Part shown: piece by piece, positions 7,821 through 41,130 of the stretch
Layout of the letters: every line of letters starts with the position of its first letter
How positions within the stretch are numbered: position 1 is the first letter of the stretch
Origin: Fimbriimonas sp.
GTDB lineage: Bacteria > Armatimonadota > Fimbriimonadia > Fimbriimonadales > Fimbriimonadaceae
Length of the DNA stretch: 64,000 nucleotides
Direction: 5' to 3'
Assembly: GCA_029866005.1 (NCBI GenBank)
Contig: JARXAE010000023.1
Location: forward strand, 1 to 64,000
Position numbers and translations under genes: made by a program
The notes under the pieces: model-generated
Told to the model about the DNA's origin: nothing
What the model saw: the letters and a program-made list of their open reading frames with translations, nothing else
Databases searched by the model: none

Positions 7821-8168
7821 GAACCAAATCATCAAACACCTGTGCCCAGGCAGCGGCTCCGCCGCGCAGGGCACGGGTCCCGAGGCAGCTTCGGTTCCAG
7901 AGCGAATGCGTCGGATCCGGAGATGTCTCGGGGGGGTTTGGCCTTGGGCAAGCGCAGAGACGCCAACCCAAGAAACTCAACCAATGGTTGACAAAAGCCC
8001 TCAAACATCGCCTAGTAAGTGATGATCAAAATCACAAGGCACCCAAGAACAAACTCCACAGAATCCCCAGCTGGAAAACCCCGCCCTTTAGCGCCCCTCT
8101 TTCGAAGAAATATTCAAGAGTTTGAACCTAGACTGCCCCACAAACTCTACACACGTCACTCAGCAAAA
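7821..8168. other. Convergent intergenic region after eno and wzt
   Basis: 348 nt without a supported gene. It holds a strong GC-rich hairpin at 7842-7874: an outer GTGCCC/GGGCAC pair and an inner GCGGC-TCC-GCCGC stem. There is no U-run, so a terminator role for eno is uncertain. Its right end contains a copy of a dispersed repeat (8093-8164) that recurs 33 kb away. Short open frames across the stretch look like chance. Confidence 0.6.
8093..8164 (-). repeat. Dispersed gene-end repeat, copy A
   Basis: Read on the minus strand just after the wzt stop, this segment contains the motif GTAGAGTTKGTGGGGCAGT followed by a TAGGTTCAA block, an A/T-rich spacer and GAGGGGC. The same order of blocks occurs at 41062-41134, again just 3' of a minus-strand gene. 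By eye the core from 8121 to 8155 differs at only about five positions between copies. It is non-coding. Confidence 0.6.
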
Positions 8169-34158: not shown

Positions 34159-35145
34159 TTAGGCCGGGATTTCTTCGAAGATCCCCATCGCGCGGAACTT
34201 ACTAAACCGCTCCGCCTTCACCTGCTCCGGAGTCATCTTCTGCAACTCGCCGAGGTGCCGACTAATCCCATCGCGGACCGTTGCGTACGCCTCGATCGGC
34301 TTACGGTGGGCCCCACCCACCGGCTCCGGAAGAATCTCGTCGATAATCCCGTACTCCAGCGCACTTGCCGACGAAATACGAAGAGCTTCCGCCGCCTGCT
34401 TACCCATCTCCGGCTTGCGCCAAAGAATCGCCGCGCATCCCTCAGGAGGAATGACCGAATAAACCGAGTGTTCGAGCATCAAAACTCGCGACGAAGCCGC
34501 GATCCCAATTGCTCCCCCCGATCCGCCCTCGCCAATAACGACAGCGACGGTCGGAACCGTCAAAGCGAACATCTTCATGATCGAAGCCGCAATCGCTTCG
34601 CTAATCCCCCGCGATTCGCTCTCGACCCCCGGGTCTGCCGCAGGAGTATCGACGAACGAAATCACCGGCATCTTAAACCGCTCCGCCATCTCAAACAGCC
34701 GAATCGCTTTGCGATACCCTTCCGGCTTTGCCATTCCAAAATTCCGGAACTGCCGACTCTGAATATCTCTTCCCTTCTGATGACCAATAATCATCACCGG
34801 AGTCCCCTCAAACGTTGCCGGACCGCCGACAATCGCGTTGTCAGCAAAGCCATTGCGGTCACCCTGAAGCTCAGTAAAGTCCTGGCAAAACGCAGTGACG
34901 TAGTCGAGCGTATAAGGTCTCTTCGGCGCCCGAGCGATCAGCGTCTTTTCCCAAGGGCCAAGGTTTTCCGGGTCGTACATCATTTCTAGGTACCGATCCC
35001 GGGTCTTCTCAAGATCAATGATCTTAGCCTGACCCGTCTCGAGGGCCGTCGGATTCGTCTCTTTGCGAGCTTCCATCTTCATCTTCTCGATGAACTCATC
35101 AATCTCACGGAGTTCTTTTTCAAATTCATTAAAGTTGGAGGGCAT
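34159..35145 (-). CDS. accA: Acetyl-CoA carboxylase carboxyltransferase subunit alpha
   Basis: Product of 328 aa. It transfers the carboxyl group from biotin to acetyl-CoA together with AccD for fatty acid synthesis. Typical segments are PEGYRKAIRLFEMAERFKMPVISFVDTPAADPG, VIGEGGSGGAIGIAASSRVLMLEHSVYSVIPPEGCAAILW (seen as two shorter blocks) and a C-terminal helical tail. Its ATG overlaps the accD stop by one base (TGATG), so the two subunits are translated together. Confidence 0.97.
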   Translation of the reverse strand: MPSNFNEFEKELREIDEFIEKMKMEARKETNPTALETGQAKIIDLEKTRDRYLEMMYDPENLGPWEKTLIARAPKRPYTLDYVTAFCQDFTELQGDRNGFADNAIVGGPATFEGTPVMIIGHQKGRDIQSRQFRNFGMAKPEGYRKAIRLFEMAERFKMPVISFVDTPAADPGVESESRGISEAIAASIMKMFALTVPTVAVVIGEGGSGGAIGIAASSRVLMLEHSVYSVIPPEGCAAILWRKPEMGKQAAEALRISSASALEYGIIDEILPEPVGGAHRKPIEAYATVRDGISRHLGELQKMTPEQVKAERFSKFRAMGIFEEIPA

Positions 35146-35984
35146 CAGCGCATGTTCTCCTTCACGACGCTTCCGAGGGAGAGAAACAAGTGGCCGCCGA
35201 GCGTCTTAACTAAAGACGTCAGCGTGGCTCGCATCTCCTTTCGAGGCACAATGGCGTCGATCATGCCGTGCTTGAAAACAAACTCGGCGGTCTGAAAATC
35301 GTCGGGAACCTTCCCTACTCCGGCCTGCTTCGCTACCCGAGCTCCGGCAAATCCCACCAGCGACTTCGGCTCGGCGATGATAACATCGGCAATGGACGCA
35401 TAAGAAGCCAAAACTCCCGCCATCGTCGGGTCGGTGAAAATGCAAATGTAAGGCACACCAACCTCCCGGCACTGCTGGACCGCCGCCGAAGTCTTCGCCA
35501 TTTGCATGAGGCTCAAAATGCCTTCCTGCATTCGGGCTCCGCCCGAGGCGCAGAAGATGATCGCGGGAATCCCCTGTTGCGCCGCACGCTCCAAAGTCCG
35601 GGTGATCTTCTCCCCAGCAACCGAGCCCATTGAACCGCCCATAAACGAGAAGTCGGCAACCGCAACCGAAACCGGCATCTCATCAAGCTTCGCTCGACCA
35701 GAGACAATCGAATCATGCATCCGAGTCTTCTCCTCAGCAGCTTTCAGCTTCTCGGCGTACTCCGGGAATTGCAAGGTGTCGATCGAGCGAAGATCGGTAT
35801 CCAACTCTTCAAACGAATCCTCATCAAAAGTCCATCGCATCCTCGTGAGAGCAGGAATCCGATGGTGATGGTTGCAGTATCCGCAGACGTGCAGGTTTTG
35901 CTCAAAATCCACTCGAAAGAGGATTTTCTTACAGCCTTGGCATTGTAAGAAGGCATCGCCTTGTTTCAGTGATTTGGCACTCAA
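35145..35984 (-). CDS. accD: Acetyl-CoA carboxylase carboxyltransferase subunit beta
   Basis: Product of 279 aa. The N-terminal zinc ribbon is intact with Cys15, Cys18, Cys34 and Cys37 (CQGC and CGYC). The crotonase-type part has IIFCASGGARMQEGILSLMQMAKTSAA and IAEPKSLVGFAGARVAKQ. It is first in the accD-accA operon. No biotin carboxylase or biotin carrier gene is present in the window. Confidence 0.97.
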   Translation of the reverse strand: MSAKSLKQGDAFLQCQGCKKILFRVDFEQNLHVCGYCNHHHRIPALTRMRWTFDEDSFEELDTDLRSIDTLQFPEYAEKLKAAEEKTRMHDSIVSGRAKLDEMPVSVAVADFSFMGGSMGSVAGEKITRTLERAAQQGIPAIIFCASGGARMQEGILSLMQMAKTSAAVQQCREVGVPYICIFTDPTMAGVLASYASIADVIIAEPKSLVGFAGARVAKQAGVGKVPDDFQTAEFVFKHGMIDAIVPRKEMRATLTSLVKTLGGHLFLSLGSVVKENMR

Positions 35985-36088: not shown

Positions 36089-37135
36089 TCAAATCTGCCC
36101 AGTCGCAAACACCGATAAAGCCGTCGGCTCAAACTCAAAAACCGGCATCTCAACGTCGCCAAAATTCAGCGCCACCAGCGGCTTGATCACCTGCTCATTC
36201 ATCACAGTATCCGCCAGATCACGGCGAATCGCCTCCAACTGAAGCAGAAACACCTGAAGGTGAACCCGCCCCATCGCCAGCGACCCAACCCGCGTCCCCT
36301 CGCTCGTCGTCAGAGTCTGCCCAACAATCGCCCGGGTGATCTCGCGGTTATGAAAGTCAATCGCATCCATAAACCCCTGACTCGCATTGTTACGATCCCC
36401 CAACGGAGAGATTTCAAACTCATCCGGGAAGACAATCGCCGAATTCTTAGCCAAAGCCTCCAGCGAGCGCAACATCGCGTTCTGATCCTCGCTCGTCGCT
36501 CCTTTCCCGAACTTCGCGAGCAAGGTTGGCGATGCAAACCGCTCCAGATGCATTCTCCACGCCTCCATCAACCGCTTCTTCTCCCGGTAATGCGGCATTG
36601 CTGCCTCAAGATCACTCTGCCCATAAGGCCGTCCATAGCCTGGTCGATGACGATAGATGACAAACCGATCAGGGCTCAGTAACCGCTCGGCCTCGCCCGG
36701 GAGATTAAGCCGCAGACTCTTCGGATTCTCAAACTCATCCATCTCAATGGTGAAGTACTGAGGATCCTTCGTGTGCACGCTTTGAATCCACCACTTCCCC
36801 CCATCGGCTTGGTAGACGATTTCTTGAATGCTCCAGCCATGAACAAAAGCATCCATCGCGTTTTGAAGAATGCTATGAACTGACCCTTGCATCTTCGAAA
36901 AAGCCTGTCGAACAAATTCGGCCTGGGCAGTTTCCCCGACGATCTTCCATCCTGAAGCAAGCACCCCCAGTGTCTTGATCGTCAGCGAAGTCTGAATCAT
37001 CGAGTCTTTAGCCATTTCGGCAAAAAGCTCGGGACGGTTGGGCTTCGGAAATCCCCCCTGAGCCGCTTGGAGCTGCCAGGCGGGAATAGTTGGGGTCGGC
37101 GTTGGTGGTTTCGGTTTTTTGTTGAATATTTTCAT
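36089..37135 (-). CDS. Phage portal-like protein (DUF935, Mu gp29-like)
   Basis: Product of 348 aa resembling portal proteins that form the dodecameric DNA entry ring of tailed phages. Visible segments are MAKDSMIQTSLTIKTLGVLASGW, AFVHGWSIQEIVYQADGGKW, RFVIYRHRPGYGRPYGQSDL and IVGQTLTTSEGTRVGSLAMGRVH, the last being typical of the DUF935 family. It is slightly shorter than the usual 400-500 aa. It lies 83 nt downstream of the terminase gene on the same strand; no capsid, protease or tail genes follow (accD is next). Confidence 0.82.
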   Translation of the reverse strand: MKIFNKKPKPPTPTPTIPAWQLQAAQGGFPKPNRPELFAEMAKDSMIQTSLTIKTLGVLASGWKIVGETAQAEFVRQAFSKMQGSVHSILQNAMDAFVHGWSIQEIVYQADGGKWWIQSVHTKDPQYFTIEMDEFENPKSLRLNLPGEAERLLSPDRFVIYRHRPGYGRPYGQSDLEAAMPHYREKKRLMEAWRMHLERFASPTLLAKFGKGATSEDQNAMLRSLEALAKNSAIVFPDEFEISPLGDRNNASQGFMDAIDFHNREITRAIVGQTLTTSEGTRVGSLAMGRVHLQVFLLQLEAIRRDLADTVMNEQVIKPLVALNFGDVEMPVFEFEPTALSVFATGQI

Positions 37136-37218
37136 TGTAGTGAGATTGGAATGCGATCAGATTTCAGGGGTAAACAATACTTGCTGAAGGCTGAAGGCTG
37201 ACGGCAGCTAGCAGACAG

Positions 37219-38484
37219 CTATCTTCTTGGATTCGTGGTCAAAATCATCCGATGCGCGTAAGGCAGGTCGCTGACCGCCATCGCCAGAGCCATGACCAGG
37301 TCATCATGACCACTTTTCGCCGCCATCTGGACGTGCCCGCTCGCCGAGCGAGTAGCCTGAAAATTGTCGAGTTCCTTCTTGAGGGCTTCGTGAGGGGGGA
37401 GCTGGATCGAACGGGTCTCAAATGCCCGAACAAGACCATCCACCAATTTGGGCTTTGATTCCGTGGTGAAGACAAACGACTTAATCGACACCGCACGCAG
37501 TTCGTTTCGAAGCCAGGCGGTGATGCTGTCGCCTCCGCCAGTCGTATCGCAAATCAGTCGAGCATTCGGATAACGTGCCAGGACGTCCGTCACCCAAGCA
37601 ATCTGCTTAAACCAGTCCTCACGATGTTTCCGATCGACTTCCAAGACGCTCGCTCTCGACTGGAAGCCCCGAACCACAACGAGCGCCGAGAAGTCCTGGT
37701 ATCGAGCCCAGTCAACCGCAATAATTGTCGGGCCCGGAATGTCAAAATCAGGCTCCGCGACAACACACTCGTCAACCGCCGTCCGGTCAAAGACGTAGCC
37801 CTCCCGCTGAACAAACTGTGCGTCGTATTCCGTGGCATACGCGCTCGGACTCAGCAGCTTCTTCTGCCGATCCAAAAACGCCAGCCGAACCTGTGGATTA
37901 TCGCTACTAGGAGCCTGGAGAGACCAGAACTCATCGGAATTTTCCAGCCCCTCCCTAAACGCCTCATAGAAGTGGTCCTGGCCATTGGGAGTGCTGATCA
38001 TCGTTAGACTCCCATCCGTCGTTGCCATCATCGGGGTCAACACTTCGTTCACAACCGAACCCGAAACATAAGCCGCTTCGTCAACAATAATCTCGCTCGC
38101 CTCGTCACCCCTGAGGTGGTGCCTCGAATGCGCCGACCGAGCGACTACCGAGTGCTCCCCCATCGTCAACTCCATCTTAGAGTCCCGAAACTTCGGAATC
38201 AATGGAAACCGCAACTCCCAGAGTCCCCGCGAAACAAGCTGCTCCACCAGCCCCCGAAGTCGCCGAAACAAAAAACTCGCCTGCTCCAGAGTCGGAGCAA
38301 CCAAAAGCGTCCGTCGTGGTCTGTCCGCCCCTAGCCCCGCAATCACCTGCACCGCGCAAGCGTCCGTCTTCCCCCACCGACGCCCACAGGCCAGCACCTT
38401 CGTCTTCGCTCGAGCCAGCAAAAATCTCTCCTGCCCAGGATGCGGCCGCCACACTGGGCCAAGCCAATTCAAAAAATCTTGCAT
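37219..38484 (-). CDS. Phage terminase large subunit-like ATPase-nuclease
   Basis: Product of 421 aa with both expected domains. ATPase: Walker A CGRRWGKTDA at 33-42, Walker B IIVDEA at 132-137 and motif III SLTMISTPNG at 159-168. Nuclease (RNase H-like): acidic residues Asp258 (IIAVDWARYQD), Asp313 (LICDTTGGGD) and Asp394/395 (SGHDDLVMALAMA). No catalytic residue appears lost, so it looks under selection rather than decayed. Terminases drive genome packaging in phages and gene transfer agents. The downstream portal gene supports this, but the rest of a prophage is absent. Confidence 0.9.
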   Translation of the reverse strand: MQDFLNWLGPVWRPHPGQERFLLARAKTKVLACGRRWGKTDACAVQVIAGLGADRPRRTLLVAPTLEQASFLFRRLRGLVEQLVSRGLWELRFPLIPKFRDSKMELTMGEHSVVARSAHSRHHLRGDEASEIIVDEAAYVSGSVVNEVLTPMMATTDGSLTMISTPNGQDHFYEAFREGLENSDEFWSLQAPSSDNPQVRLAFLDRQKKLLSPSAYATEYDAQFVQREGYVFDRTAVDECVVAEPDFDIPGPTIIAVDWARYQDFSALVVVRGFQSRASVLEVDRKHREDWFKQIAWVTDVLARYPNARLICDTTGGGDSITAWLRNELRAVSIKSFVFTTESKPKLVDGLVRAFETRSIQLPPHEALKKELDNFQATRSASGHVQMAAKSGHDDLVMALAMAVSDLPYAHRMILTTNPRR

Positions 38485-38529
38485 TCACCTTACAGGCGAG
38501 CAAGTCGACCAAATGTCAACCAGAAACCG

Positions 38530-38988
38530 CTAAATTCGGACCGGCTTCCCGTCCGGAGCCGGAAGCTTTCGCATCTCGGCAACAAAGTCTCGAAACACCC
38601 GCCAGAACTCCCCGTCTTTGTTCAGCCCGATCCAAATCGGCTCGTTATCATCGATTTGGATCGCGTAAAACCCAAACATGTAGTGCGCCACATCCGGCTT
38701 AATCAGCCCCGAGTTAACTAGCAGTGCCACCTCTTCAAAAAACGCAATGAAGTTCCGCCGATCCTGGATCGGCTCGTTGGCAATCGAAGCATCTCCCTCA
38801 AAGATCATCGTCAACAACCGACGAAAAATCGCATCCTCAAGGAACCGCCTCCGCATGTTGATGAACTGCGTCGCCCGCGCCGCGTGGTTCTGGCGCGCAT
38901 ACTGAAAAAGTCCCTGCCAAAGGGTGATAAAAGCAATCAGCCCCGCAACAATGATCGAAAGATCTTTCAGCAAGTCAATACGTTGCAT
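38530..38988 (-). CDS. Membrane-anchored protein of unknown function
   Basis: Product of 152 aa from ATG 38988 (GTG at 38994 is possible). One N-terminal membrane helix ([22 protein letters not shown]) is followed by a soluble helical domain with [32 protein letters not shown]. This domain type occurs in small stand-alone bacterial proteins of unknown function that may sit near phage or defence loci; I cannot name it. It is just upstream of the terminase gene on the same strand and divergent from nuoB, 72 nt away. Confidence 0.65.
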
Positions 38989-39060: not shown

Positions 39061-39651
39061 ATGCCAAAGCGCGTTGAATCAGTAGTCCTCCACGACAGCT
39101 CAACTCCGGTCATCGGAGACGCCCAAAGAGCTGGGAGCGTCGTCGTGACGTCGCTCGAAAGCCTGATCTCCCAAGCGCGAGCCCACTCCCTTTGGCCCGT
39201 CACCTTCGGCCTCGCCTGCTGCGCCATCGAAATGATGGGCGCCGCCGGACCCAAGTTCGACATCGCTCGATTCGGCTCAGAGGCATTCCGAGCAACTCCA
39301 CGACAAGGCGACGTCATGATCATCGCCGGACGAGTGAGCAAAAAAATGGCTCCCGTCCTTCGCCAAATTTACGACCAAATGCCTGAGCCTAAGTGGGTCA
39401 TCAGCATGGGCGCCTGCGCTTCTTCAGGAGGCGTTTACAACAACTACGCCATCGTCCAAGGTGCCGACCAAATCGTCCCCGTCGACGTCTACGTCCCCGG
39501 CTGCCCCCCATCTCCCGACGCCCTCATCTACGGAATCATGAAGCTCCAAGAGAAGATCAAGCGCGGACGAGCCACTACCCTTTCCGACCTCCGACTCATC
39601 GAAGTCAATTCCCGCGACATCCAAGAAATCGAAGACAAGGTGACTGCGTAA
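39061..39651 (+). CDS. nuoB: NADH-quinone oxidoreductase subunit B
   Basis: Product of 196 aa from ATG 39061 ([12 protein letters not shown]). It carries the terminal N2 iron-sulfur cluster of complex I. Ligand cysteines are Cys53 and Cys54 ([10 protein letters not shown]), Cys119 ([10 protein letters not shown]) and Cys148 ([12 protein letters not shown]). It overlaps nuoI by one base (TAATG). No nuoA lies upstream; nuoA is 12 kb away. Confidence 0.97.
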
Positions 39652-40560: not shown

Positions 40561-41130
40561 ATAATCAAGAGAGAGTCTGGGTGGCACTGAGAAGCGCCCA
40601 TGCATCTCAACCTCTCAACCTCCACAATCCCAGCTTGTCAGTGAACCGCCTCCCTCCAAGCCACCAACTCGAAGCCAACGGCAAAACTCGCCGAGATCTT
40701 AGTCCACCGAGCGTAGCGAGCCCAAATTTGCCAACAAGCCACCAACCCCAAAACACCTTCCAACCGGGGTGGAGGGTGGGAAGGGGCGCGATGTCAATGT
40801 CTCGCCAACTCAAATGCCAGGTTGACAAACCCCTACTTCCTTGCCTATAAAGCAGAGATGCCAATACACGAATTAGCTACAAACCCGATAAGCGGGCAAT
40901 ACGAGAAGCGACTTTCACCGACCTGTGCCGGAGTCGGTGAATCTAAGTTCAGTGATTTGCACCAACTGCACCGAAGTTTCCCACAAGCCCAAACTCTTTT
41001 GAACCTAAATGCACCAACTGCACCAACGTCCCAGTGCGATGCCAAAAAGCGGCCCCTCCCTGCCCCTCATTTGGCAAAAACTCGCCAGTCCTTGAACCTA
41101 AACTGCCCCACCAACTCTACATACGCCGCC
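40514..41130. other. Gene-poor repeat-bearing region
   Basis: About 600 nt without a supported gene. It contains a 9-bp inverted repeat (TTCACCGAC 40914-40922 and GTCGGTGAA 40933-40941). A direct repeat TGCACCAACTGCACC occurs at 40958-40972 and 41010-41024, each preceded by a GAAYCTAA-type block. A third related block starts at 41094. Open frames across these repeats on both strands look like artefacts of the repeat composition. Confidence 0.55.

Follow-up and report, generated by a model that had tools for sequence, protein, structure and literature searches.

A lone terminase-portal gene pair in Fimbriimonas as the probable packaging half of a scattered, apparently tail-less head system resembling gene transfer agents

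We analyzed a 64,000-nucleotide stretch of DNA (the window) from Fimbriimonas sp., in which a large terminase gene (TerL) and a portal gene stand together. The analysis indicates that, very probably, the pair supplies the packaging functions of a head system that the host owns and inherits vertically, that is spread over several loci and apparently tail-less, and that resembles gene transfer agents (GTAs). The module occupies at least three loci in its own genome (G000, Fimbriimonadaceae): the TerL-portal pair, a head operon on contig C38 and a gene for a helix-turn-helix (HTH) protein on contig C18. The head system looks ancestral to much of Armatimonadota and, as judged from its genes, would form particles and transfer DNA. 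Its packaging and head genes are the following, TM denoting small transmembrane proteins:

Window positions 37219..38484, (-) strand: TerL, large terminase of 421 aa, recognized by Pfam and PHROG, with intact ATPase and nuclease motifs.
Window positions 36089..37135, (-) strand: Mu-type portal protein (PF06074) of 348 aa, recognized by Pfam.
C38:36433-39871, (-) strand: seven-gene operon protease-decoration-capsid-TM7-TM6-adaptor-stopper.

Both genes of the pair are full length, and their GC content is near that of the window. TerL matches Pfam Terminase_6N/6C and PHROG 2 (E 1e-42), and neither its Walker A (GRRWGKT) and Walker B (DEAA) motifs nor its acidic nuclease residues (D258, D313 and H393-D394-D395) vary among 20 homologues, which bears out the original prediction of a large terminase with complete ATPase and nuclease motifs. 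The DUF935-type portal expected beside it is likewise confirmed by a match to Pfam Portal_Mu (PF06074, formerly DUF935; E 6e-65). As had also been noted, genes for capsid, protease, tail, integrase or lysis are absent from the vicinity of the pair in the window, and no TerS gene adjoins TerL in this genome.

The implication that just two packaging genes remain did not survive a genome-wide search. Capsid and protease alignments built from the gene clusters of deep Armatimonadota lineages, used to search the genome, identified a capsid gene at C38:37644-38537 (-) and a protease gene at C38:38972-39706 (-), in an operon that also encodes the adaptor and the stopper. The capsid is gpT-type, the own-genome copy matching PF10124 with E 1e-50, and the decoration protein and protease correspond to PHROG 1731 and PHROG 976. 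An HK97 capsid (PF05065), tried as a candidate, was discarded as the wrong capsid type, being absent from G000 and the module genomes searched. The adaptor, stopper, TM6 and TM7 gave no significant PHROG or Pfam match, and the adaptor and stopper were therefore modelled, from deep-lineage orthologues rather than the own-genome copies. The stopper model (predicted local distance difference test score, pLDDT, 88) matches, with the entire domain covered, neck or stopper proteins of Pam3 (Z 10.0), T1 (9.8), lambda (9.3), SPP1 (gp16, 7.7) and the Rhodobacter capsulatus GTA (RcGTA, 7.6), and its BFVD matches include head-to-tail connectors. The adaptor model (pLDDT 72) is helical, with an outstanding top match to the P74-26 neck (Z 9.2) and other phage necks next; because it is a helical bundle, this match lends the putative adaptor identity only moderate support. 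TM6 and TM7 each comprise about 80-90 aa and have a single hydrophobic segment, in most cases close to the N-terminal end, and TM6 is 94-99% identical between species whose remaining module proteins diverge more. Operon gene order is retained by most of the 20 relatives compared, and in L242 the operon is split further. The flanking genes look, as read from sequence rather than profile-tested, like the host genes dtd, recJ, nusG and secE.

The distribution of the module was analyzed in 61 genomes comprising our own and those of the same genus, family and order, by profile matches in codon-scored, unrefined gene calls from partly incomplete assemblies, mostly metagenome-assembled genomes. TerL has an orthologue in 39 of the 61 and the portal in 41, as a rule in one copy each. 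TerL, portal, capsid and protease are all present in 35 genomes and all missing from 19, with a partial set in 7, some of them incomplete assemblies; pairwise Fisher tests of four-gene co-occurrence yield p values of 6e-10 to 4e-14, uncorrected for phylogenetic dependence. Presence and absence are both seen inside the window's own genus, and median genome size in family f1 is 3.15 Mb with the module versus 4.2 Mb without it. TerL and portal identity is 75-85% among near relatives, 40-60% within genus and family and 36-47% at the level of the order, and the protein distances of TerL, portal and the unlinked capsid correlate (Mantel r 0.68-0.83, p 0.0005). The two genes are adjacent in families f1 and f5 and occupy separate loci in f2. 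Searching for the same pair at the same place in relatives thus gave a divided answer: the pair is kept across many genera, and its flanks vary by genus beyond the nearest relatives (G000, G018 and G001, with accDA on one side), from which we conclude that it was carried along during genome rearrangement. The proposed dN/dS analysis points to purifying selection: module genes with computable synonymous divergence (dS), the adaptor not among them, have dN/dS ratios (NG86) of 0.02-0.26, most below 0.2, compared with 0.015-0.15 for neighboring host genes, values that are rough because dS is near saturation.

Clustering of genes adjoining TerL revealed that deep Armatimonadota carry the parts in a single cluster of TerS, TerL, portal, protease, decoration, capsid, adaptor, stopper and small membrane proteins, of which an endolysin is often part. 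In L275, L281, L282, L284 and L286-L288, the interval between capsid and adaptor holds additional, variable genes of about 60 to 1005 aa, candidates for head fibers, spikes or decoration. When 84,980 species genomes were scanned with the TerL alignment, the best 80 loci came nearly all from Armatimonadota, Chthonomonadia and Abditibacteriota labels among them. In a tree of 110 TerLs, obtained by a quick method without bootstrap, 74 Armatimonadota sequences split from 33 viral-contig and 3 other-phyla sequences with 100% support in the Shimodaira-Hasegawa-like approximate likelihood ratio test (SH-aLRT). Among viral contigs the portal alignment matched nothing and the TerL alignment reached distant relatives only, none of them carrying the module; no phage relative exceeds 36% identity.

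Several individual TerL sequences merit separate mention. One labelled as a Methanoregulaceae archaeon (L144, JADZEW010000025.1) falls inside Fimbriimonadaceae in the TerL tree and is a mis-binned or mislabelled Fimbriimonadaceae sequence. Two Anaerolineae (Chloroflexota; L214 and L217) have a related TerL at a common site, apparently without portal or capsid nearby, which may be a similar lone packaging gene. A second TerL copy without portal occurs at G000:C29:84-1415 (L004:84-1415) and at L037:8759-10033; these copies of two species share 94-96% DNA identity confined to the open reading frame (ORF), at unrelated sites, other genes of the two species having dS near 1, a pattern suggesting that TerL by itself was recently transferred or duplicated as a gene-sized piece.

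The loci of the module share upstream sequence elements. The motif GGTTGAC is common to the upstream regions of TerL and protease, shortly before the start codon, and its core GTTGAC is found within 100 bp upstream of TerL in 13 of 18 cases, of the protease in 16 of 20 and of the HTH gene in 17 of 29 (46/67 in total), compared with 8 of 684 control genes of the same loci. The window contains three instances of the longer element:

Positions 38493..38521, (-) strand: GGTTGACA-N17-CCTG, promoter-like element of TerL, its first base 37 nt from the start codon.
Positions 7986..8014, (+) strand: GGTTGACA-N17-GCCTA, intergenic copy with no convincing downstream gene.
Positions 40820..40847, (+) strand: GGTTGACA-N16-CCTA, copy with no convincing downstream gene.

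Throughout G000 the GGTTGACA-N17-GCCTA element has 37 matches, against 5 in a reversed control. A search for a tail gene behind these 37 matches found none, the recognizable genes being TerL, the HTH gene and three AAA ATPases. The latter (L311 at C11:89392, L314 at C15:85441 and L322 at C20:365001) are AAA_25 (RepA/DnaB-like) genes directly behind the promoter element, mutually related and one of them shortened; they are possible further members of the regulon.

A palindrome, TAGTAGA-N6-TCTACTA, is present in some protease promoters, and a palindrome search of nine genomes of the genus recovered it repeatedly at two places, one upstream of the head operon and the other upstream of the HTH gene, which encodes a sigma-70-region-4-like protein of 138-142 aa (own-genome copy at C18:2902-3318). 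The second site led to the prediction that the HTH gene tracks the module, and this held: of 42 genomes that have at least one module gene, 40 carry the HTH gene, versus 1 of the 19 others. The exception, G008, has no module; its HTH gene is a shortened copy preceded by a complete TAGTAGA-N6-TCTACTA site, as would be left by loss of the module. Across the order, most HTH genes are preceded by the palindrome. Another family contributes a single-contig genome (G128, L285) in which a homologue of the gene and TerS stand side by side in divergent orientation at the head of an intact cluster, and the sequence between the two genes contains GGTTGAC. By these shared elements the scattered loci are apparently jointly regulated. 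In 17 genomes of family f1 (L346-L365), including the module-less G008, the HTH gene is followed by one for a protein with a zinc ribbon and TPR (about 400-460 aa).

The search for tail genes used the tape-measure family PF10145 as its probe. The genome-wide search envisaged by the original prediction succeeded for the capsid, found in its operon, and not for the tail, PF10145 being missing from the window's genome and from almost every genome that has the module. The family scores above cut-off in four genomes only, and in three of them a further, phage-like portal lies within some 12 kb:

G006 C1:1055184-1067300: phage-like locus with remote Mu-type portal and tape-measure gene.
G011 C14:11211-17889: phage-like locus with remote Mu-type portal and tape-measure gene.
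G024 C2:728920-741264: phage-like locus with remote Mu-type portal and tape-measure gene.

These are ordinary prophages coexisting with or replacing the module. Because other tail families were not searched, it is likely but not proven that the system is tail-less. Integration and replication genes were sought by clustering and inspection in the TerL, portal and capsid neighborhoods of the relatives examined, and none was seen.

Next to the pair, the window contains three other genes:

Positions 35145-35984: accD, downstream neighbor of the portal on the accDA side.
Positions 38530-38988, (-) strand: small DUF4760-like ORF between TerL and nuoB.
About positions 39061-39651, (+) strand: nuoB, upstream of TerL.

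The expected contact with accD is thus real, and nuoB is not quite a direct neighbor, because the small ORF intervenes before TerL. We considered this ORF as a candidate TerS and rejected it; its orthologue in G018 adjoins nuoB, about 7 kb away from TerL.

Of the two explanations first offered for the pair, a domesticated, GTA-like packaging module agrees with its single copy, its co-occurrence with capsid and protease, purifying selection, a TerL clade without viral members and a shared promoter and regulator. The phage-derived head and packaging genes are host-maintained and vertically inherited, and no integration or replication genes accompany them in the neighborhoods examined. The second explanation, a very recent and incomplete prophage deletion, is rejected because the lone pair recurs in many genera with different flanks, its identity falling from 85% to below 40% with taxonomic distance. 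More generally, that the pair is a recent phage remnant, of which only terminase and portal happened to survive near accD, would agree with the presence of just two phage genes locally and with the phage origin of the family-level homologues of both proteins; it is scarcely credible for a pair that is single-copy and conserved across the order, under low dN/dS ratios, without phage relatives above 36% identity and with a matching capsid operon retained elsewhere in the genome. The features of a prophage, namely a contiguous block, close free phages and a patchy or decaying presence in relatives, were not observed. That Armatimonadota captured related prophages several times independently might be suggested by other phage-like clusters of gpT type with large tail-sized genes in the phylum, which account for a minority of the capsid-positive genomes (e.g. 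L290 and L291). These clusters are of a different type, however, and the module TerLs form one clade, the distances of unlinked parts correlate and the promoter element is common to Fimbriimonadales and another family, so that we judge such capture highly improbable.

Two further explanations accept a functional head and assign it another role. The parts list equals that of capsid-forming phage-inducible chromosomal islands (cf-PICIs), with terminase, portal, capsid, protease and connectors and no tail (PMC10690885), and the system keeps its adaptor and stopper, whose counterparts in phages serve for tail docking; a satellite of this kind, domesticated or mobile, would build its own heads, use helper-phage tails and move itself. 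It would be expected to show an integrase, att site or replication gene, none of which was seen at the loci examined, and its genes would not be scattered over at least three loci and vertically inherited in genomes that mostly have no detectable tape-measure gene; we regard it as very unlikely. A head-only structure serving phage interference, through decoy capsid or portal parts, or storage would be in keeping with the lack of any tail gene found and with two small membrane proteins inside the operon, one nearly as conserved as acetyl-CoA carboxylase. A shell that does not package has no need of an intact packaging motor and portal, here co-inherited with the capsid, or of the endolysin added in deep lineages, and this role seems very unlikely.

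Several observations nevertheless weigh against a GTA-like head system. The capsid profile is present in 57 of 151 genomes of the phylum and the other 94 sampled members have no match, so the system must be dispensable or often lost. About 30 further GGTTGACA copies in the genome, mostly intergenic, have no recognizable gene behind them, and the element is therefore partly a dispersed repeat. Upstream of TerL the palindrome was not found, just 7 of 20 relatives show it clearly ahead of the protease, dS is saturated for many gene pairs, and clustering and inspection of about 60 neighborhoods disclosed no tail genes adjoining the module, whereas described GTAs mostly have tails.

If the GTA-like reading is correct, the system might work as follows. 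The HTH protein would bind the palindrome TAGTAGACATATGTCTACTA and control its own gene and, in several lineages, the head operon, the direction of control being conjectural, and the GGTTGAC promoter element observed at all three loci would drive them. By homology, capsid, protease, decoration protein and portal should build a prohead, which TerL would load through the portal with cellular DNA; the lack of TerS beside TerL here would fit sequence-independent packaging. Adaptor and stopper, as their folds suggest, would seal the filled head. Release would proceed through lysis, for which deep lineages have an endolysin and small membrane proteins behind the head genes and our genome the two conserved single-TM proteins within the operon. 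Since no tail was found, DNA uptake may dispense with a tail, as it could through competence, or rely on a borrowed or undetected one, with GTA-like DNA transfer among kin as the net effect. That transfer is truly tail-less, with one regulator, DNA-filled capsids released by lysis, uptake by kin without a phage tail (e.g. by natural competence), an origin independent of described GTAs and inheritance since near the base of the phylum, is a proposal we consider quite possible and hold only tentatively.

GTAs are described from a small set of lineages, mainly alphaproteobacteria and Brachyspira, with a few more besides. A literature search, with most subscription journals and bioRxiv preprints outside its coverage, returned no report of such a system for Armatimonadota. 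RcGTA is encoded by at least 24 genes in five loci (PMC10883770), and its dedicated DNA-binding regulator is GafA (PMC9638019). Like RcGTA and the alphaproteobacterial GTAs (Rhodogtaviriformidae), the present system has vertically inherited, phage-derived head and packaging genes in several loci and a dedicated regulator, here a candidate. Unlike RcGTA, it has a gpT-type (PF10124) rather than HK97 (PF05065) capsid, a Mu-type portal, a terminase-portal pair unlinked from the head genes, a sigma-70-region-4-like candidate regulator and no tail found, and because the host belongs to another phylum its origin would be independent. Set against the GTAs described so far, it has a different capsid type, gene arrangement, regulator and host phylum, and it apparently lacks a tail. 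For Faecalibacterium FpGTA I (PMC12946183), GTA-like particles without identifiable tails are reported, a likeness by description. The nearest analogy for own heads without a tail is provided by cf-PICIs (PMC10690885), which similarly combine terminase, portal, protease, capsid and head-tail connectors with no adjoining tail genes; those are mobile integrated islands with helper phages, however, whereas the genes here are scattered, vertically inherited and without an integrase seen. Among phages, Thermus P23-45 and P74-26 are among the best TerL matches (28-30%), the P74-26 neck matches the adaptor model, and Mu-like phages have the portal and capsid families of the module; these Thermus and Mu-type-portal/gpT relatives are remote only, and no phage or viral contig examined has the module gene set.

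If the proposed reading holds, a phylum-wide, vertically inherited tail-less head system would be a domestication of great age and independent origin, raising the question of what constitutes a minimum GTA and whether a DNA-filled head suffices. The analysis provides a testable gene list (TerL, portal, protease, decoration, capsid, two TM proteins, adaptor, stopper and HTH regulator) together with a testable promoter and operator code, and 'orphan' phage genes of the kind usually dismissed as remnants would gain an explanation.
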